Source: Alistipes sp. (GTDB taxonomy: Bacteria > Bacteroidota > Bacteroidia > Bacteroidales > Rikenellaceae). Taken from it: a stretch of 64,000 nt of DNA. Position numbers and translations under genes: made by a program. Numbering within the stretch: the stretch's first letter is position 1; each line of letters begins with the position of its first letter. The stretch spans positions 1 through 64,000 of the forward strand of contig JAGAPT010000017.1 in assembly GCA_017623115.1 (NCBI GenBank), read 5' to 3'. Positions 2,896 through 20,097 of this stretch are shown piece by piece. The notes beneath the pieces were generated by a model. That model was not told the origin of the DNA. It saw only the letters and a list, made by a program, of their open reading frames with translations, and ran no database searches.

Positions 2896-2978
2896 TTAAC
2901 CCTGCTGCGCAGGCTTGACTTTGCTGCGGCTCGGCATACTCCGCAAGCGGCCTCTGCACTCGCCTTAATCGCAAAGTT
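2896..2978. repeat. Dispersed intergenic repeat, copy 1
   Basis: An approximately 83-bp block containing CCTGCTGCGCAGG and ending in CGCAAAGTT recurs almost unchanged at 32020-32103, in the same orientation, with only a handful of substitutions. It occupies the space between the convergent radical SAM gene and the end of the fimbrial operon. Pyrimidine-rich CTCGCCTCT repeats precede it. Confidence 0.85.
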
Positions 2979-5900
2979 ACTCTCTCTCCACGTCTCTCAC
3001 GCAGCGGGAACTCGTTGAGAGGTGTCCCCCATCGCCGAGGCTATTCTCCATGTAGATGTTGCGGGAGTCTCGTGCCCAGCCTGTTTTGCGTTGGCCATTG
3101 GGGTCGGTTTCGGTCGGCTTGGGGTTGTTGCCGGCCATACCATACGAGTAGTAGGTGCGGCTGTAGGCCTGCGACACGCCACTCCAGAACGAGGAGGCGC
3201 AGTAGAGGTGCATGATGGTCAACTCACGCTGATTGGGCAGACGATAGCCCTTCGGACAATAGGGGTTGTTACCGAGCGAGCGGTCGAGGTTGGCCTGCAT
3301 CGTGGGGAAGTTGATGGAGGAGAAGGTGGGGCTATCGACCGATGTAGCCTCAAACTGCCAATAGAGGCGGTTCTGCGCCGACAACTCATCCGAGTAGACG
3401 AGGTCGACACCCTCCTGCCCGAGGTAGCGAATCGATTTGGCATTGAGATACTCCAGGTCGAAGAGGGGCACAGCATCGGTACCCTTCACCTGCACATAGT
3501 CGGTAGCCACATCCGTGAGGGAGGCAGCGTCGGAGTCATCCATACCCAGGTTACGCACACAGCGAGTCTCCCAGGTGGTCATACGTCCCCACTGGGTCGA
3601 GCCGGCCAGGTCGCCCGTCGAACAACCCTCCTCGGCCCAGACAACAATCGGGGAGTTGCTGTTCGAGCCCGAGCGGGTACTCGACACGACATGCTGACGC
3701 CACACCGCCTCGTCGTTGCTGGCACGCTCCTGTGCCGAACGCTTATACAGACGCGCCTGGTTGTCGATGCCATCGGCACCCATCCACACCGCCACGAGCT
3801 GCTTAATCGAGGCCATATACCACCGCACCTCACCCGGGTCGATGATGCCGTTACCGTTGTTATCGCGGTTGCGCGCCATGCACGACCATTGCAGGTATTT
3901 GTAGTTGGCATCGCCATCCGAGCCATCCCGCATCTCCGACTCCTCGTTCGTAGCCCGCAGATTGAGGTAGGTATCCCAGCGTTGTCCGACGGCAAATTGG
4001 GTATCGTCAGCCCCCACCAAGCCCCACTCACGGAGCGTATTGAGGCGGCCGTTGTAGTCATCGTCATTACCGCGGTCAACCGCCGTGCCGGGTCCCACAG
4101 CATTGTAGGCCAGGTTCGGGTATTCGTCGGTATGCTCCATACCCCATGCCGTGGTCAGCCCCTCATGATTTTGGTTGTAGACCGACTGTATCGAGCGTTG
4201 CTGAATCGTGTAGGAGGAGCCCACGACCCGACTCTCCTTGTCGAGGCTCTCCTTCATATCCGAGAGGATGTGCATCAGACGCATCTCATCCTGGTTGACC
4301 ACACGTTTCCAGAGCAACGGACCTGCCACCGAGGTGAAGGGGTGCTCCTCGTAGTAGAACTCGTTGACGAAGGCCGTGACGGCCAACTTACCATTGCGGT
4401 CGAAGAGGTTGGCCTCGCCCGCATCGTAGGCACGCTTCTGGTCGCGCAGCAACTTCACCAGCTCGTCGACATACATCGTCTTGCCATCCGACGCAGGATA
4501 GGGATTTCCCGCCGCATCGACCTTCGTGCTGTGGGGGATGTAGAGCTCCCGCTCCTCGGAGTAGATGTTGTTCCACTTCTCGTTGACACGGAACTCCACC
4601 CATTTGAAGTCGAGACCCGTCGTCACATCCGTACCATTCGACACGGTCGGCTTACCCTCTCCAAAGGGGGTGCGGACATACCAGGTCACGTCATCCGCCT
4701 TGATGTATCGCTGGTCGAAGCTCATCACGTGGGTCGTATAGTGGGCATCGCAGTCGAAAATCTCCTGCAAGGCGATGGTTACCTCGCCCGTGGCTCCGGG
4801 GGCATTCTCGGTGATACCCTCCATGTCGTCATTCGAGGTTTCCACCTCGACCCGGATGTCGTTCACGCCATTGACGGTGATGGTATAGGTGTAGGAGGTG
4901 TTTCGTTCGGTCGAGAAGTCGGCCGGACCTGCGTGGGAGAAGTCGCCCAGATGGATGACATAGCGCACCTCGGCATTGAGCGTACACCCCTCCTGGGTGA
5001 TATCGCCCAACTGATAGTCGGTATTCATCACCAGACGTCCCGTCAGCACGACATAGGTCGAGTTGTCGTTGGCATACTCCCACTCGCCATTGAGCCCCTC
5101 CGGGCTCTTCACCTGCCGCTCACGGTCGGCATAGGCGGAGGGTATCTGCTTGGGTTGGAGGGCATTTTCGAGCAGGTAGCACGAGAATCCGTAGCGCACC
5201 TTGTCATCCTCGGTCGTCGAGGCATCGCCCGCATCGTAGACCTCCTCCACCTCGACATTCTTGGTCGGCGTATCGAAGTAGCCCTGTGCCGAGTCGGTGG
5301 TCGGGAGTCCATATTTGGCACGCACCTCGCGGCTCATCAGGTAGGTATCGGCCGAGACGTTGCACACCTGCCACTTCTTGACCTCGAAGGATTCGATATC
5401 GTCGTTGCCCACCTTGACCCAGAAGCGCACCTTGGCATCGAGGCGTTTGAGTTCGAGCGTACCACTCATGGCAGCCGTATTGACGGGCGAGAGTTCACCG
5501 GTCATCGGGAAGTAGCCGCTGCGCTCGACAAACTCCTGATTCAGGGCCACCACCATATCGAGCAGCTCCTCCTCACGCTGGAGACGGTTCAGCGCCTCGG
5601 GCGACATCGAGACCATCTTCGAGTCGATGTTCGCAATGGCAAAGATTTTACACCCCGTGCGTGCCATCGTGTGGAGTTTGACCGTTCCCGAGCACTCCTG
5701 GCTATCGCCTGTCGGCACCGTAACATACCATGCATCCTCGTCAGATGCCTCGACCGCTGCCACCGAGCCCAACGCATCGGCCACGTCGAAGTAGCGACCA
5801 AAGAGCTTGTTGCCGTCGCCATCGAAGAGGTAGAGATAGAGGTTCCACACCTTCGCCTCGTCCGAAATCTCGGGCATCGTTTGGCGCGACACGACCCTAT

Positions 5901-6039
5901 CTGTTGCCGACGACGCACCGAAGCGAACCAGCAACTCCACCGGCTCACCCTCCGCCACGAGCGACGCATCGTCAATCGGCGACTGCGTACACCCGACCAG
6001 CACAAGCAACAAAAACAGGTACCAGACTCTTCTCATCAT
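2977..6039 (-). CDS. Large DUF4906-type fimbrial lipoprotein, probable pilus tip subunit
   Basis: A 1020-residue lipoprotein. Its signal peptide ends in a lipobox, LVLVGC (Cys17). The N-terminal region (about 25-400) is beta-rich and Mfa/fimbrillin-like. Arg48 and Arg52 could serve as maturation sites of the kind cut in type V pilins. The C-terminal third contains CPKGYRLPNQRELTIMHLY, typical of DUF4906 and FISUMP-type domains. It is the last gene of the fimbrial operon, 8 bp after the preceding subunit. Its size and terminal position recall large tip adhesins such as Mfa5, but it has no visible von Willebrand domain. The tip role is inferred from context. Confidence 0.75.
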   Translation of the reverse strand: MMRRVWYLFLLLVLVGCTQSPIDDASLVAEGEPVELLVRFGASSATDRVVSRQTMPEISDEAKVWNLYLYLFDGDGNKLFGRYFDVADALGSVAAVEASDEDAWYVTVPTGDSQECSGTVKLHTMARTGCKIFAIANIDSKMVSMSPEALNRLQREEELLDMVVALNQEFVERSGYFPMTGELSPVNTAAMSGTLELKRLDAKVRFWVKVGNDDIESFEVKKWQVCNVSADTYLMSREVRAKYGLPTTDSAQGYFDTPTKNVEVEEVYDAGDASTTEDDKVRYGFSCYLLENALQPKQIPSAYADRERQVKSPEGLNGEWEYANDNSTYVVLTGRLVMNTDYQLGDITQEGCTLNAEVRYVIHLGDFSHAGPADFSTERNTSYTYTITVNGVNDIRVEVETSNDDMEGITENAPGATGEVTIALQEIFDCDAHYTTHVMSFDQRYIKADDVTWYVRTPFGEGKPTVSNGTDVTTGLDFKWVEFRVNEKWNNIYSEERELYIPHSTKVDAAGNPYPASDGKTMYVDELVKLLRDQKRAYDAGEANLFDRNGKLAVTAFVNEFYYEEHPFTSVAGPLLWKRVVNQDEMRLMHILSDMKESLDKESRVVGSSYTIQQRSIQSVYNQNHEGLTTAWGMEHTDEYPNLAYNAVGPGTAVDRGNDDDYNGRLNTLREWGLVGADDTQFAVGQRWDTYLNLRATNEESEMRDGSDGDANYKYLQWSCMARNRDNNGNGIIDPGEVRWYMASIKQLVAVWMGADGIDNQARLYKRSAQERASNDEAVWRQHVVSSTRSGSNSNSPIVVWAEEGCSTGDLAGSTQWGRMTTWETRCVRNLGMDDSDAASLTDVATDYVQVKGTDAVPLFDLEYLNAKSIRYLGQEGVDLVYSDELSAQNRLYWQFEATSVDSPTFSSINFPTMQANLDRSLGNNPYCPKGYRLPNQRELTIMHLYCASSFWSGVSQAYSRTYYSYGMAGNNPKPTETDPNGQRKTGWARDSRNIYMENSLGDGGHLSTSSRCVRDVERE

Positions 6040-6047
6040 CCACTCTC

Positions 6048-7463
6048 CTAATTAAATTCCACCTCTTCCTCCTTCTCGTTCCAAGGCAAGACGCGGAAAT
6101 TAAACGTATCACTCGTATCGTTGTAGTAGGCATTGATCTCCACCACGATGTGTTGGTTGCGCAACTGCTCACGCATGGGGGTCACGGCCGCCGTCACAGG
6201 GTCGATGACCTCGATTTGGCTGTTGGTCAGCGAGGCGGTCTGCCCGTTGAGTTCCTGGAGCAGCCAATCGCGGGTCGTATTCGACACATTCGCGAAGGAT
6301 ACCGAGCCATTCGTATCGCGCAGATAGTAGCGGCTGCTATAGTAGATACGCAGGTAACCGCTGTTCATACGGAACGTGAGGAGGTTACTGCTTGACGAGC
6401 CGGCTGTTGTACTCCGATAGTAGCGATTGCCGGTCGCCACGTTGGTCATATAGCCGCTGCTCGTACTGCTGAAACGCCACATGGCATGCTCCTGGGAAAG
6501 GGCATCGGTCAACTCCTCCACCACCGCCATCTGGCCATTGCCGTCATCGACCAGATAACGCTTCGTCGAGCGGTTGCGCAACAGATAGGCGGTCGAGGTA
6601 TTGATGGCCGTAGCATCACTCAGGATGCCGCTTCCGACCCCCACGTCGAGGGTCATCGTATAGGTCGAAGCACGATTCTCGAAGAGCACCACCGAATAGA
6701 TGGTCGCCTCGGTATTGGCCGGCACCGACAACTCCGCCCCACCCGTATACTCGGCCAGCGTCGGCAGTGCCCGATAGTTCACCGTCCCGGGCAACACCCC
6801 GTTGTGGGGCAGCAGGTAACCGGTCGAGGGGTTGAAGTTGCTGAACGCGATGTTCTGAATTGCCATCTCCTCATCCGAGTGGTTGAACATCCGCACCTCG
6901 AACCACACCAGCGGGCGCAGCATATCCACCTGTTCGGTGGAGTTTCCGACCCCGATTTTTACCTCCTTGACGGCTGTCAGCAACATCGGATGGGTCGCAT
7001 CCATCGTGGGCGTCGTGCGCCCCGTGAGGGCCGTAAAGAGGGCATCCCGCTCTGCTGCGCCAAAGGTCTGTCCCACGGTCAGCGTTGCGAGCAGCGTGCG
7101 TGCTTCGCTCAGCAGTGTCCGCTCGGTATTGGCATAGGCATAGAGCAGATAGTTACCGATGTCGAGGTTCTGGAAGGTTACCCGACGTATCTGCTGTTCG
7201 CTTCCCGTCAGCCCCGTCAGCTGCACCTTCTCGGAGATCATTCCTACGGGATTCACCAGCACGAGGGTCAAATCCTCCATGCCACCACCCTGCATGAGGT
7301 TGCCATCCCCGGGGGTCACGGCACGGCCTGCGGGGGTCGATGCCACCACCACCGTGAGCGACCCGCGCCCCTCCTTCGGTGGCACCGCAGCCTCCTTCGA
7401 GCAGCCAATCAAGAGCAGCAGCAGCCCGAGTATCCACATCCTATGTCGGTTTCTTCCTCTCAT
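6048..7463 (-). CDS. Fimbrillin-like lipoprotein with C-terminal trefoil-like region
   Basis: This 471-residue predicted lipoprotein has lipobox LLLIGC (Cys21) and a candidate cleavage arginine at 47 (AGRAVTP). Residues about 35-300 read as a fimbrillin-type beta fold with a segment like accessory type V pilus subunits. Residues about 300-440 have repeated aromatic-rich blocks (GNRYYRS, SSRYYLRD, RDWLLQEL) that suggest a beta-trefoil or lectin-like module. I started at the ATG at 7463 because it precedes a proper signal sequence. The longer open frame would run into the upstream gene. Probably a minor or near-tip pilus subunit. Confidence 0.7.
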   Translation of the reverse strand: MRGRNRHRMWILGLLLLLIGCSKEAAVPPKEGRGSLTVVVASTPAGRAVTPGDGNLMQGGGMEDLTLVLVNPVGMISEKVQLTGLTGSEQQIRRVTFQNLDIGNYLLYAYANTERTLLSEARTLLATLTVGQTFGAAERDALFTALTGRTTPTMDATHPMLLTAVKEVKIGVGNSTEQVDMLRPLVWFEVRMFNHSDEEMAIQNIAFSNFNPSTGYLLPHNGVLPGTVNYRALPTLAEYTGGAELSVPANTEATIYSVVLFENRASTYTMTLDVGVGSGILSDATAINTSTAYLLRNRSTKRYLVDDGNGQMAVVEELTDALSQEHAMWRFSSTSSGYMTNVATGNRYYRSTTAGSSSSNLLTFRMNSGYLRIYYSSRYYLRDTNGSVSFANVSNTTRDWLLQELNGQTASLTNSQIEVIDPVTAAVTPMREQLRNQHIVVEINAYYNDTSDTFNFRVLPWNEKEEEVEFN

Positions 7464-7486: not shown

Positions 7487-8557
7487 TTATTGAAAGACAA
7501 TATCTCCGACCGACCCGGCCACCTCGTCCCACTCGGTGGTACGCACCTCGACATCGAAGCGATCGGGCTGCACGGTGATCAGGTAGATGTATTTGCGACC
7601 GGCACGCCACACCATATCGTTACCCGCACTATCCTTGGTCGGCAATTCAAGGGTCATCGTCACCGTATCGGTCGTGGTCCACTTCACATCGACCGTAAAG
7701 GTGATGGAGGGTTTGGCAACCCCCTCGCCCACCACCAACGATTGGGGCAGGAAGAGGTCAAACTCCTCGGGGTAATCATCCGTCGAGGCCGGAATCACCC
7801 TTCCTTCGGCCGAAGACCACTCACGCAGACGCTCCGAGTTGAAGATGTTCACCGGATCGACATAGCTGCGCGACCCCTCGGCATAGACCCAGTCGTGGGT
7901 CACATCGGGCTGTTCGTCGGTCGAGTCATAGGGCAAGGCACCGATGTAGTTCAGGCTCGTGAAGAAGTAGTTCTTGAGGCGGTACTCGCACTCCGCATCC
8001 ACCGAGCAGAACTTCACGGCCACCGCTGCCAGCGTATGGTGGAATTGCAGCGGCACGGGTTGTCCGTTGTTACCGGCCGGACACCGCGTATAGGCGACCA
8101 TCAGGTCCTCGTTGCGGGTCAGCATGCTGTATTCGAGGGCTAACGTGCGGGCCGAGGCGGTACCCATCACCGGGGCTTCGGCCGGCCAATAGGCACGGAA
8201 CTCGTAGTTGCCGCCGGGTTGCCAATACTGCACCGGGTCGTAGTTCCACCCCGAGGGTGAGGGTGCTGCGCCATTGTAACGCACACGCACATTGCGAAAG
8301 ACCTCACGCCGATCGCCTGCGGCATTGTACACCCAATCGCCATAGACGGCCAACGCATGGGCTCGGAAGTCGCTCTGGTCGGTTTGGCCAATCAGCGTGG
8401 CAGCACGCCCCTTGACCTTCGGCTCCGTACCAAAGGTAATGGCACGCGGTGCATCGGGCTGCGGCTCGGGACGGGGCTCAACGCTCCCCTCCGACTTGCT
8501 GCAACCTGCGCTCCACGCCACGACGACGAGCATCGCCAGAAGCCATCTGTTCCACAT
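7487..8557 (-). CDS. Fimbrillin family lipoprotein
   Basis: A 356-residue Mfa-like protein with signal peptide MWNRWLLAMLVVVAWSAGC (lipid Cys19) and a candidate maturation site at Arg51 (KGRAAT). The fold markers are FRAYWP, FHHTLAAVAVKF and a C-terminal strand with TEWDEV, all typical of fimbrillins. The start at 8557 gives the clean signal peptide. A further in-frame start at 8608 adds charged residues before it. It follows the major subunit by 114 bp and precedes the next subunit by 23 bp. Likely a minor structural subunit of the type V pilus. Confidence 0.8.
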   Translation of the reverse strand: MWNRWLLAMLVVVAWSAGCSKSEGSVEPRPEPQPDAPRAITFGTEPKVKGRAATLIGQTDQSDFRAHALAVYGDWVYNAAGDRREVFRNVRVRYNGAAPSPSGWNYDPVQYWQPGGNYEFRAYWPAEAPVMGTASARTLALEYSMLTRNEDLMVAYTRCPAGNNGQPVPLQFHHTLAAVAVKFCSVDAECEYRLKNYFFTSLNYIGALPYDSTDEQPDVTHDWVYAEGSRSYVDPVNIFNSERLREWSSAEGRVIPASTDDYPEEFDLFLPQSLVVGEGVAKPSITFTVDVKWTTTDTVTMTLELPTKDSAGNDMVWRAGRKYIYLITVQPDRFDVEVRTTEWDEVAGSVGDIVFQ

Positions 8558-8671
8558 ACGAGGTCTATTCACTTTTTTTTCGTCATTAGGGGATAGCAAG
8601 GGGGTCAACCCTTACTATCCAATCCATTGTCCACGAGGAACAAAGGTGTTTTTTACAGTTGATAGGTTCGA

Positions 8672-9796
8672 TTAGATCGAGATTACGCCATCGACATTCT
8701 CCCAGTCGACAACAGCCGGAGCGAAGTGAATCTCATCACCTGCCGGGTCGATATCAATCGTGTAGGTGATGTTCTTACCCATCTCCCAAGCCGGCACGGC
8801 GGGGAACTCGACAAACTCCTTCGTCACAGGCTCCTGCAGCACCGTAGCACTCTGACCACCCGGAGCGGTCGTCGTAATCGAGTACTCGATGGTAATCGAC
8901 TGAGCACCTACTGCAAGTGCCTGCGGCAGGATGAAGTAGTTCTGGGCGGGCTGTGCGCTACCGGCACCATAGGTGCGGGCCGTCGTCGTCAGCACCTGGT
9001 CAACCTCCCACGACTTCGACACGGTCGAGCTCGTATTCGACCATACGTTGTAGGGCACCGTCGTAATCGTGTTCTGCCAATCAACCACCGTAGCACCGGC
9101 ATCGTGCTTATTGACAGTCTTCAGCGTCACGCTACCCGTGTCGTAGATACCGTTGATGGTAATCTTGTGTACCGTTACCTCCCACTTCGTTACGGCATCG
9201 GGCGACTCGTTCTTGTTGTCCAGACGGAAGACCTTCACCAGGAAGTTCAACTTGGCCAAGGCGTGGTGGAAGAGGGTCGGAACACCCGTAAAGCCATAGT
9301 TCACGGTGTTGGCCGTCTGCTGCATCGCCTTATCCGAGTAGAGCAGGTCGACCGGATTGGCAGCGTCTACCTTGAACTCCTGATACCGCAACGTCTGCTG
9401 CACATCGCTATCGCTAATCTGGGGAACAGCCGCATTAGCCGCATCGGCATTGTAGGGTGCATAGCTGATGAAGTCGAGGTGACCCTGCGTCGGCCAGAAA
9501 TAGGTCTCATCCTTTGCAGCCCAGTAGCCGTTACCATCGGCAATCTTGTAGACAACCTCGGCATTGTCGATGTAGGTCGAGTGCACGCCGGGGGTCTCCG
9601 AGTTCTCGTAGTAGGCGTAGGTACCGAAACTCTGATTCGTCGGATAGGCTACCTCGGCACGAGCCTGTGTCGGCTTGTACTTCGCCACCTCGAAGGTGAT
9701 CTCCTGCCGGCCGTCACCGACCTTGGCACCATCCTCCTTCACGCAACCGGTGAGTGCTACACCCACGAAGGCTGCCAAAAACATCCATTTTTTCAT
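8672..9796 (-). CDS. Major fimbrillin (Mfa1-like) of a type V pilus
   Basis: A 374-residue lipoprotein precursor with lipobox VALTGC (Cys18). TQARAEVAYP around residue 46 matches the trypsin-like (R|A) processing site of type V pilins, where removal of the acylated propeptide allows strand exchange. Other fimbrillin features are the FISYAPY block, FHHALAKLNFLV, and a C-terminal strand VVDWENVDGVISI that could act as the donor strand. It follows the anchor-type gene by 73 bp, and 114 bp precede the next subunit, spacing that would allow separate control. It is called major subunit by position and by its clean fimbrillin architecture. Confidence 0.82.
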   Translation of the reverse strand: MKKWMFLAAFVGVALTGCVKEDGAKVGDGRQEITFEVAKYKPTQARAEVAYPTNQSFGTYAYYENSETPGVHSTYIDNAEVVYKIADGNGYWAAKDETYFWPTQGHLDFISYAPYNADAANAAVPQISDSDVQQTLRYQEFKVDAANPVDLLYSDKAMQQTANTVNYGFTGVPTLFHHALAKLNFLVKVFRLDNKNESPDAVTKWEVTVHKITINGIYDTGSVTLKTVNKHDAGATVVDWQNTITTVPYNVWSNTSSTVSKSWEVDQVLTTTARTYGAGSAQPAQNYFILPQALAVGAQSITIEYSITTTAPGGQSATVLQEPVTKEFVEFPAVPAWEMGKNITYTIDIDPAGDEIHFAPAVVDWENVDGVISI

Positions 9797-9869: not shown

Positions 9870-10916
9870 TCAATGTTTTGGTCCAATCGGAATCACCTCT
9901 TCGACATCCTCCCAATCATCTACCTCGGGGTTAAAACCGCCGCCCGTATCGGGATAGATCGGTGCCGGAATATCCCACACCTCGTCGATGAGTAACCAGT
10001 GTCGCTCACGCGCATCCTCGGTGGCGAATATCGGCGTCATATCGACCACCTTCTGGTGTTTCTCGCCATCGCGGGTCAAGACGCTGATCACGACCCGCAG
10101 TTCGCTCTTCGAGGCATCGAGCCGCCCGAAGGTATTGAACGTACCACACAGCACCGACTGATTCGCCTCCTCGATGCGGGGGTCGGTGCTTTGGTGCATC
10201 TCGAAGTAGACCGATATCGGCTCCTCCTCCATGCGCTCGTTCACGCCAAAACGGTTGGCCGGCACCAAGCCCGAAAGCACCGCTACACCGGCGGCATTGG
10301 CGGCCATATGGTCGGGGCTCGTGATACGGATCTGTATATAATAGGTATCGACCACCGTGTGAGCATCGAGGTCAATGCGCATCACATCGGGGTGGATATC
10401 GACCTGCAAGGGGGTTTTACGTGCCACCATCAGGTGGTCGGGCTGGTAGCAGACACGGCCTATCTCATCGGCACGACTGCCAAAGCGGGCGTAGAGTTTC
10501 TCGGAGACCTCCTGCGTATAGCCATAGATATTGTCGTAGTGCTCCTCGTCATCGATCTGCACCGTCTCGAGGTCGAAGTTGTAGCTCAGCACCCGATACG
10601 CCCCCGGAGCGAGGCGAATAGCTGCCCCCAACGTCTCGTAGCCACGCTCGTCGATGGTGCGGTTGGTCAGGAAGCCCTGTGAGAGAATCGGTGTTCCCTC
10701 GGAGCCATAAATCAAGGCTCGCAACGCCTCGGAGGTAATCTCGGGACGTGCGACCGCCTCATTGTAGATGTTGCAGGTGACGTTGTTGATACCCTCCGTC
10801 ACGAGGTGCACGTTGAGCAGTGCCCGATCCTCGGGGTCGGTCAACGGACGACGATGACACGCCACGCCAAGCAGCGCAACGCACAGCACAACCGCTATCC
10901 ACCCCATCCGTATCAT
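9870..10916 (-). CDS. FimB/Mfa2- or DUF5119-like fimbrial lipoprotein, probable anchor
   Basis: A 348-residue lipoprotein whose signal peptide ends in LLGVAC (Cys20). It reads as a two-domain beta protein of the DUF5119/FimB-Mfa2 type, with the early motif NVHLVTEGINNVTCNIYNE and a C-terminal DDWEDVEEVIPI. In type V pili such proteins stay lipidated and anchor the fibre to the outer membrane. The ATG at 10916 overlaps the TGA of the DUF3575 frame (ATGA), so the two are translationally coupled. Which of the two families it belongs to cannot be settled by eye. Confidence 0.72.
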   Translation of the reverse strand: MIRMGWIAVVLCVALLGVACHRRPLTDPEDRALLNVHLVTEGINNVTCNIYNEAVARPEITSEALRALIYGSEGTPILSQGFLTNRTIDERGYETLGAAIRLAPGAYRVLSYNFDLETVQIDDEEHYDNIYGYTQEVSEKLYARFGSRADEIGRVCYQPDHLMVARKTPLQVDIHPDVMRIDLDAHTVVDTYYIQIRITSPDHMAANAAGVAVLSGLVPANRFGVNERMEEEPISVYFEMHQSTDPRIEEANQSVLCGTFNTFGRLDASKSELRVVISVLTRDGEKHQKVVDMTPIFATEDARERHWLLIDEVWDIPAPIYPDTGGGFNPEVDDWEDVEEVIPIGPKH

Positions 10917-11431
10917 CGGCGACCTCCTTTCTTCTTGGTGTACGAGAGGTGCAGCGGCCACACCAACGCCACCTTGAGTTTCGTCGGGCCGAACCAGTTT
11001 TTCCGCCCATGGTCGTAGTGGTCGCGCCACAATTCGCTGTAATCATCGGCCGGGAAGTAGTGGCGGTAGGCCGTCGAGAGCCACCCCACCGAGAGGGAAA
11101 ATTCGAGGCGGAAACGGCGTGAGAGCGACATCACATAGCCATAGGTCACACCTGCCGACCAAAATTCGCCCTGGTAGCAGGCATCATAATCGCGCTGGAA
11201 GTCATATTTGCCCGACATGCCGTAGAGCCCCAGGAAGTGGCCACGGAACTTGTGGGCGTGGTAGTGATTTTCACGGAACCAATAACGCCCCTCGACCCCC
11301 ATTTCCCAGAGTTGGAGGCAATACTTGTTGCCCGTCTCCCACCACGGGAACACATCCTCGACAGCCACCGACCAGTGGTTGCCAATGGGCACCTCGACCT
11401 CGAAGTTCAAGGCCGTGGCAAGGTCGTACAA
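10913..11431 (-). pseudogene. DUF3575 outer-membrane barrel, C-terminal half of a frameshifted gene
   Basis: The frame encodes a DUF3575 domain (NLLYD, EVPIGNHWSVAVED, WFGPTKLKVALVWP), an outer-membrane barrel usually found in fimbrial loci. It has no ATG. The first possible start is a TTG inside the domain, and conserved residues TIGLKTN lie upstream of it, still in frame back to the C8 tract at 11471-11478. In related proteins DUF3575 follows an OmpA-like domain in one chain, and here that domain is encoded by the preceding frame. Insertion of one C in the tract would join the two halves. This is therefore either an off-phase allele, a mutation or a sequencing error. Confidence 0.8.
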
Positions 11432-11442
11432 CAGATTGGTTT

Positions 11443-12165
11443 TTAGCCCAATGGTGAGTGTATCACGCTCGGGGGGGGTACCGGCAGTGGCGGCAGAAGC
11501 TGCACCTTATGCAGCCTTGTCGGCTCAATGACCCACGATGTAGCCACACCGGGTGCCGGCAGGGCAATCGGCTCGCGCAGCGCAATGGGATGCGAATGCA
11601 CGATGCAGACCATCGAGTTACGAATACGCGGGTAGTAGGTTTTGTAGAGGTAGCGGTAGACCGGGTCGTTGGTCAGGCGACGCTTCTTGGTGGCAATCGG
11701 CACCGTGTTGTCGTCGATGATGCCGAGTACCCGCTCGATGGAGGCTGCAGACAACTCCTCGTCGCGCTGCACATGTTTGCGCAGTTGTTCCCACGACTCC
11801 CCCTCGTGGTTGACCGTCAGGCGGTCGCCCAGTGCAGGATAGTGCTCCTCCATATAGGCACGCATGGCGCGGGCACGCCGTTGCGAGAGGCGTTGGTTGT
11901 GGTAGTAAGGACCCTCGGGCGAGGATTGGGAGATGATACCCACCGAGTCGATATGCGCGATACCGATGGAGTCGATACGCTGGCGGATGAGCGACAAGGC
12001 ACGGTCGTTACCCAGATAGAGCGTGTCTAACACGGCATTATCCCAACGGAAGTGAAGTTCGGTAAAGAGGCTGTCGGTCTGCATCTGGCGAGGTCGCTCA
12101 CCAGGCGTTTGCGCCACCGCACACCATGCCATGCACGAGAGCCACACCACAAACCCATATTGCAT
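11443..12165 (-). CDS. OmpA-like periplasmic domain protein, N-terminal half of frameshifted OmpA/DUF3575 gene
   Basis: The 240-residue frame begins with a signal peptide (MQYGFVVWLSCMAWCAVAQ) and carries an OmpA-like peptidoglycan-binding domain with the typical SQSSPEGPYYHNQRLSQRRA motif. The last residues after the C tract (SVIHSPLG) are out of character and end 28 bases later. The real product is probably one chain of about 417 residues continuing into the DUF3575 barrel. I chose the start at 12165 because the frame further upstream covers the promoter. As first gene of the operon it would supply an outer-membrane component for pilus assembly. Confidence 0.8.
   Translation of the reverse strand: MQYGFVVWLSCMAWCAVAQTPGERPRQMQTDSLFTELHFRWDNAVLDTLYLGNDRALSLIRQRIDSIGIAHIDSVGIISQSSPEGPYYHNQRLSQRRARAMRAYMEEHYPALGDRLTVNHEGESWEQLRKHVQRDEELSAASIERVLGIIDDNTVPIATKKRRLTNDPVYRYLYKTYYPRIRNSMVCIVHSHPIALREPIALPAPGVATSWVIEPTRLHKVQLLPPLPVPPPSVIHSPLG
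11471..11478. repeat. Homopolymer G8 (C8 on coding strand) at the frameshift point
   Basis: Eight consecutive G on the plus strand. With eight C the coding strand reads ...GTA CCC CCC CCG AGC and stops at 11443. With nine it would read ...CCC GAG CGT GAT and enter the DUF3575 frame. Confidence 0.95.
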
Positions 12166-12203
12166 CCAATTTTTCACCACTTCACACAAGCGAAAATTAT
12201 TGC

Positions 12204-12235
12204 CAAAATTAGCAAAAAAATCCTGCGTTGGCAAA
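12204..12235 (-). promoter_or_regulatory. Promoter of the fimbrial operon
   Basis: On the minus strand, TTTG (12235-12232) and TAATTTTG (12211-12204) are separated by 20 bp. This is an almost ideal Bacteroidetes -33/-7 pair. Transcription would begin near 12197, which supports the translation start at 12165. Confidence 0.75.
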
Positions 12236-20005: not shown

Positions 20006-20080
20006 CGGGGTGTAGCGCAGCCCGGTTAGCGCGTCTGGTTTGGGACCAGAAAGTCGCAGGTTCGAATCCTGTCTCCCCGA
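20006..20080 (+). tRNA. tRNA-Pro (anticodon TGG)
   Basis: A 75-nt cloverleaf: acceptor 20006-20012 with 20073-20079 (one T-T mismatch), anticodon stem 20034-20038 with 20046-20050, anticodon TGG at 20041-20043, and T-loop GTTCGAATC. The 3' CCA is not encoded. Confidence 0.95.
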
Positions 20081-20097
20081 CAAACTGAAACAAGCAA

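Follow-up and report, generated by a model that had tools for sequence, protein, structure and literature searches.

The window, which is the whole 64,000-nucleotide stretch analyzed here (contig C4:1-64000 of an Alistipes sp. draft genome of 2.19 Mb in 60 contigs), has on its minus strand an OmpA-like/DUF3575 gene that is divided between two reading frames. The change of frame falls at a run of eight C (C8; 11471..11478) in the linker between the two parts of the gene, as determined by reading the sequence and by alignment to a homologous protein, P0002. The N-terminal half (11446..12168), consisting of a signal peptide and a predicted OmpA-like peptidoglycan-binding domain, begins at an ATG at 12168, is out of frame past the tract and reaches a stop at 11446. 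The C-terminal half (10913..11470) consists of DUF3575, a predicted outer-membrane beta-barrel, and is encoded in another frame, which is open from ~11506 and has its stop at 10913. Both assignments are based on Pfam, open reading frames and fold matches. The DUF3575 (PF12099) match was 1.1e-37, with 129.5 bits relative to a cut-off of 21.1, and the OmpA match of the N half was sub-threshold, at 20.3 bits relative to a cut-off of 27.2.

P0002 was identified when proteins were searched with the N half, to which it has 98% identity over 96% of the query. It has 417 residues and is the representative of 28 member sequences. When it was aligned to the window, residues 1-232 matched one frame (98%) and residues 231-417 matched another (100%), with the switch of frame coinciding with the C8 tract. 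No further lesion relative to P0002 was observed in either half, both of which are 98-100% identical to it. P0002 is not the window's own protein, as the two differ at several positions in the N half. These data bear out an earlier note on this DNA, which had located the split exactly at C8 and had proposed that the restored chain would have 417 residues, the length of the full-length P0002. The note had also claimed that the C-terminal half has no ATG of its own, and on reading the sequence there was none at the junction or start of that half. Full-length homologues, which it suggested should be sought, are present, including P0002 with its 98%-identical N half.

Upstream of the gene there is a second tract, C9 (12253..12261, minus strand), seen on reading the sequence, which may have some role; several orthologues likewise have upstream tracts. 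Bacteroidales promoters have a -7 box, TAnnTTTG, and we take TAATTTTG at 12204..12211 (minus strand) to be a putative -7 box based on its resemblance to that motif and its position in the sequence. The genes that follow are all on the minus strand. The stop of the DUF3575 half and the start of the next gene share an ATGA overlap (10913..10916) with GGAGG just before it, and that next gene encodes a DUF5119 lipoprotein-like protein (9870..10916). It is followed by two fimbrillin-like genes (Mfa_like_1; 8672..9796 and 7487..8608), a lipoprotein-like operon gene (6048..7463, with an approximate start, as the longest ORF extends to 7610, and weak Pfam matches) and a gene for a 1020-residue protein with a FimA match of 3.2e-5 (2977..6039). 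The operon therefore has two Mfa_like_1 matches and one FimA match above the Pfam cut-offs. As in the FimA/Mfa-type pilus operons of Bacteroidales, fimbrillin-like genes lie downstream, and the pilus of this operon is predicted from its genes. No role of OmpA-like/DUF3575 proteins in FimA/Mfa-type pili was described in the literature searched, including the available portion of PMC10434189. The sole tRNA gene found in the window, tRNA-Pro (TGG), is at 20006-20081.

Structure prediction for the whole protein depended on the depth of the alignment, with the mean pLDDT being 59 with six sequences and 86.9 with 60 sequences. In the predicted fold of P0002 (residues 28-407), a peptidoglycan-binding domain is followed by a disordered, proline-rich linker that contains the tract, and then by an OmpA/OprF-like barrel. 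This is an OmpA in reversed domain order: the predicted protein does not have the barrel first and the binding domain second, as in OmpA and OprF, but has its barrel at the C end. The tract is thus predicted to fall between two folded domains.

A single C8 run in 64 kb is unremarkable in itself, as base composition alone predicts 1.24 exact C/G runs of eight bases, and 86 of 100 shuffles of the window contained as many C7 words. What is notable about C8 is its position at the change of frame, together with the distribution of run lengths in the genome as a whole.

P0002 matched 24 of 180 genomes of the same genus at E <= 1e-60. The gene was in one open frame in the 23 matching genomes other than the window's, and only in the window's genome were there two matches. 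Two of the 23, G050 and G051, were matched in the C half only, with open frames of 507 and 450 residues, respectively. In 16/23 of the orthologues, a C/G run of at least seven was present no more than 300 bases from the start of the open frame. In the window's genome, ~1.4% of random stretches of 600 bases would have such a run, but the count is not an independent test since the orthologues are related. When named genomes were scanned using the N half there was no match; matches were obtained by alignment search. In a second clade of orthologues, the run was mostly G8-G10 and directly behind the signal peptide. The phase of the tract relative to the codons varied at constant length, for example GGG GGG GGG AAT in L104 and CGG GGG GGG GAT in L102, which points to selection on the DNA and not on the glycines. 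In another locus, L107, the run is broken by one A and the gene is in frame.

Thirteen loci were read in three frames, and 11 were scored, with L148 and L151 being omitted as their tracts precede the start. In six loci (L140, L141, L143, L145, L167 and L191), all with G9, the leader and domain were in frame. The leader was out of frame in five: L103 and L146 (G10), L147 (G8), L160 (G9) and L149 (C9), the last being from a Bacteroidales MAG. As the loci scored in this way had first been picked for having a tract, an unselected control of 80 named loci was added, of which 79 were used (one was near a contig end) and which did not include L103. In this set, the leader was present solely out of frame in 4/15 loci with a C/G run of at least eight within 150 bases and in 0/64 loci that had no nearby tract; the 11 loci that gave no leader, one of them with a tract, were kept in these denominators.

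Two pairs of close relatives were informative about the effect of tract length. The proteins of L103 (from G198, a single contig of 3,377,718 bases) and L104 (from G052, and the same gene as L140) are 95% identical over residues 29-431, and at the same spot have G10, out of frame, and G9, in frame, respectively. The second pair is known from proteins only: P0009 (420 aa) and P0008 (217 aa) have the N half in common, and the tail of P0008 including its stop is the linker of P0009 read one base out of frame, a fit that was obtained with 0/3000 shuffled tails; the two differ by one base in the same run of the linker. At the level of sequence, tract length differs between the close relatives of both pairs and sets the frame. 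In L103, the leader region and its G tract also appear to be duplicated upstream of the gene, with G9 and G10 in similar sequence (bases 1264-1451).

An alignment of the gene bodies revealed three breaks among the loci compared, two of them at a tract (the window and L103) and one without a tract (L165); L195, which had matches on both strands, was not scored as a break. PPP was present anywhere in the linker in 8/60 aligned proteins, and in five of these (P0002, P0007, P0009, P0049 and P0119) it is directly before the domain. P0017 (237 aa, 7 members) also terminates in the linker after PPP, and could be a fixed truncation as a whole close relative of it was not found. A more distant homologue, L172, has a C14 run inside an open frame at the linker (base 2997). 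The earlier note had considered that phase variation would be refuted if the frame of relatives were broken elsewhere in the gene. In relatives the tract is mostly behind the signal peptide, and the linker position was observed only in a sub-clade. We take these differing sites to reflect a tract that recurs and shifts its position, and not to be a refutation.

The pilus gene is one of many genes in the genus with such a tract nearby, as most Alistipes genomes have dozens of C/G runs of nine bases. In the window's genome there were 3, 10 and 34 exact C/G runs of 7, 8 and 9 bases, compared with ~168, 42 and 11 expected based on the base-step frequencies of the window, and also four runs of ten and two of eleven. 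Across 37 Alistipes genomes the exact runs of 7, 8 and 9 numbered 243, 326 and 781, versus 608, 149 and 62 in 24 genomes from other families of this order, and nine was the commonest of these three lengths in 28/37 Alistipes genomes versus 1/24 genomes of the other families. Seven Alistipes genomes were also counted individually for runs of 8, 9 and 10, which numbered 32/122/7 in G198, 7/109/7 in G109, 2/72/2 in G053, 23/86/2 in G023, 8/52/1 in G114 and 0/13/1 in G203, with G104 (40/39/0) being an exception to the peak.

A rough gene call placed 40 of the 50 tracts in the window's genome outside genes. Automatic calls of coding tracts covered 10/50 tracts from this genome, and 15/90 from five other genomes (G198, G109, G023, G053 and G114). 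The 90 tracts consisted of all 19 runs of ten in those genomes, 44/86 nines and 22/23 eights from G023, and three nines and two eights from the others. Hand reading reassigned three intergenic tracts of the window's genome (L046, L062 and L079) to leaders and showed two more tracts to be in frame there, L041 (nine) and L059 (eight), and the call of one 43-residue gene (L061) is doubtful. About 38 of the 50 tracts are outside genes.

The length of the coding tracts was associated with their frame. Tracts of nine were in frame in 13 cases and out of frame in one, and tracts of other lengths were in frame in two and out of frame in nine (p = 2.4e-4, or 4.9e-4 without the window's own tract). The exceptions are L228 and L232, in frame at ten, and L257, out of frame at nine, whose leader is doubtful. 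Genes in frame at nine in the window's genome include those for four SusC-like receptors (L039, L053, L062 and L081), a leader protein (L079), an ECF sigma factor (L041), an AraC-type regulator (L080) and a protein whose match to pectate lyase is sub-threshold (L045). Three genes with non-nine tracts are out of frame in that genome: the pilus gene at C8, a SusC-like receptor whose leader is in a different frame at C10 (L046, base 1590), and a Plug-domain protein that is cut at G10 (L050, base 1568), the piece behind its tract having no Pfam match. L059, whose product is presumably a UvrA-like protein, is a counter-example in the same genome, as it is in frame at G8. In other genomes, a receptor barrel (L223) and a lipoprotein-like phosphodiester glycosidase (L229) are each interrupted at a run of ten, and two-component regulator propeller proteins from two other Alistipes genomes (L230, L234 and L235, base 902) are out of frame at ten. 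In G023, two genes are thrown out of frame by runs of this length. Several of the coding tracts fall in the signal peptide. With respect to action at the cell surface, the genes affected are mixed: they include those of SusC-like receptors, lipoproteins and sensor propellers, and with them those of the sigma factor and the AraC-type regulator.

The peak at nine persists outside genes, where there is no frame at stake and where, for the same reason, a tract cannot switch one. No longer flanking motif was found around the tracts, save a T after the G strand in 32/50. On the G strand, the three bins that span 20-80 bases downstream contained 3, 6 and 3 promoter boxes for 140 tracts, with ~1 expected in each, an association so weak that most intergenic tracts are unexplained as promoter switches. 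Neither flanking motifs nor promoter boxes account for the peak. It may represent a balance of mutations by which tracts revert to nine, or the nine-base run may itself have a function. Loss of mismatch repair was considered as a cause of the tracts and rejected, as a MutS1 match was present in 61/61 genomes searched (57 above the cut-off) and the MutS1 gene of the window's genome is interrupted solely by contig ends. With MutS1 present, high rates of slippage are not to be assumed.

Several explanations for the broken frame in the window were weighed. That the tract length is an error of assembly or sequencing, and the organism's gene is whole, is unlikely in our judgment, and yet has points in its favor: the closest public relative, P0002, is whole, the genome is a draft in many contigs, and, according to the part of PMC4235727 available, short reads are highly error-prone at C/G runs of at least eight. 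Such error weighs on single copies and less on a pattern drawn from many records, and while it would account for this copy it leaves the recurrent tracts, the out-of-frame leaders elsewhere and the peak at nine unexplained. A fixed frameshift, which would make the gene a recent pseudogene with no return to the intact frame, we regard as improbable. Truncated N halves do form clusters of their own, as exemplified by P0017, but the near identity of both halves to P0002 with no other lesion, and the location of the break at a type of tract that recurs in this gene, argue against it here.

It is more improbable still that the C run is a site of programmed slippage by the ribosome or RNA polymerase, giving a short and a full-length protein from one template. 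The run is situated in a predicted disordered, proline-rich linker where slippage would do no harm, as would suit such a site. Against this, most relatives encode the protein in a single frame, and in relatives with a broken frame the tract mostly follows the signal peptide directly, so that the short protein would be no more than a leader.

Overall, we consider it likely that C8 is a contingency tract prone to slippage, by which the first gene of the predicted FimA/Mfa-type pilus operon is switched on and off, with this copy probably in the OFF state. Slipped-strand phase variation would explain why tracts recur, why a single site is found both in and out of frame, and which types of gene are affected. 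Changes in tract length during replication would shift the reading frame, and OFF cells would then make the peptidoglycan-binding half alone, without the barrel. Since the next gene starts in the ATGA overlap, its translation would be expected to drop in OFF cells if the two are coupled, and pilus assembly may perhaps be reduced in them too. Reversible switching and the OFF phenotype are what we infer from sequence. The earlier note had suggested that the pilus may be switchable and that this copy is OFF; the first suggestion gains from the whole homologues, the breaks at tracts in relatives and the pattern across the genus, and the second probably holds for the copy as assembled.

This type of variation resembles known systems in some respects and differs from them in others. 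In Campylobacter jejuni NCTC11168 there are 29 loci with poly-G/C tracts of at least seven (PMC4965091, from the portion available), and C. jejuni is without mismatch repair according to the accessible text of PMC4235727. On the same partial sources, the contingency loci of C. jejuni are like the proposed ones of Alistipes in that there are many C/G homopolymers per genome and that they lie in the frames of genes that are at least partly surface-related. In contrast to C. jejuni, Alistipes is a genus of the Bacteroidota that has kept MutS1, most of its tracts are outside genes, and their lengths have a sharp peak at nine. Phase variation in Bacteroides, including that of SusC/SusD proteins, is by DNA inversion (PMC11868660, as far as its available text describes), and the likeness to Alistipes is in the phylum and in the types of gene targeted, for example those of SusC-like receptors. 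Unlike in those systems, no inversion is involved in the break described here, as the halves are collinear and it is their frame that differs. In Neisseria, fetA and porA have repeat tracts in their promoters (PMC4235727, in the part seen), and the Alistipes pilus gene also has a C tract upstream. It differs from them in that its C9 precedes the putative -7 box, and in that promoter boxes in Alistipes are weakly associated with tracts.

A broader proposal, which we put forward tentatively as possible, is that Alistipes has a switchboard based on slippage, in which dozens to more than 100 tracts per genome are kept at nine and nine is the usual ON length. Switching would occur preferentially in the signal peptide of SusC receptors, lipoproteins and proteins of the pilus operon, and a process that is neither selection for frame nor loss of mismatch repair would restore nine even between genes. 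Two loci, L160 and L149, which are out of frame at G9 and C9, respectively, argue against nine always being ON. The literature matches listed included no report of a slippage switchboard of this kind in Bacteroidota, nor any of repeat-tract phase variation in Alistipes, with subscription papers being mostly outside the search. If the proposal is true for pili, SusC receptors and sensors, surveys based on inverted repeats would overlook a whole layer of phase variation, and some “pseudogenes” in Alistipes assemblies would be OFF states. It would also pose a question in mutation biology, namely what holds dozens of tracts at nine despite MutS. Among the tracts between genes in the window's genome, we also noted two C8 runs that are located within short repeats (L054, bases 1525-1625).
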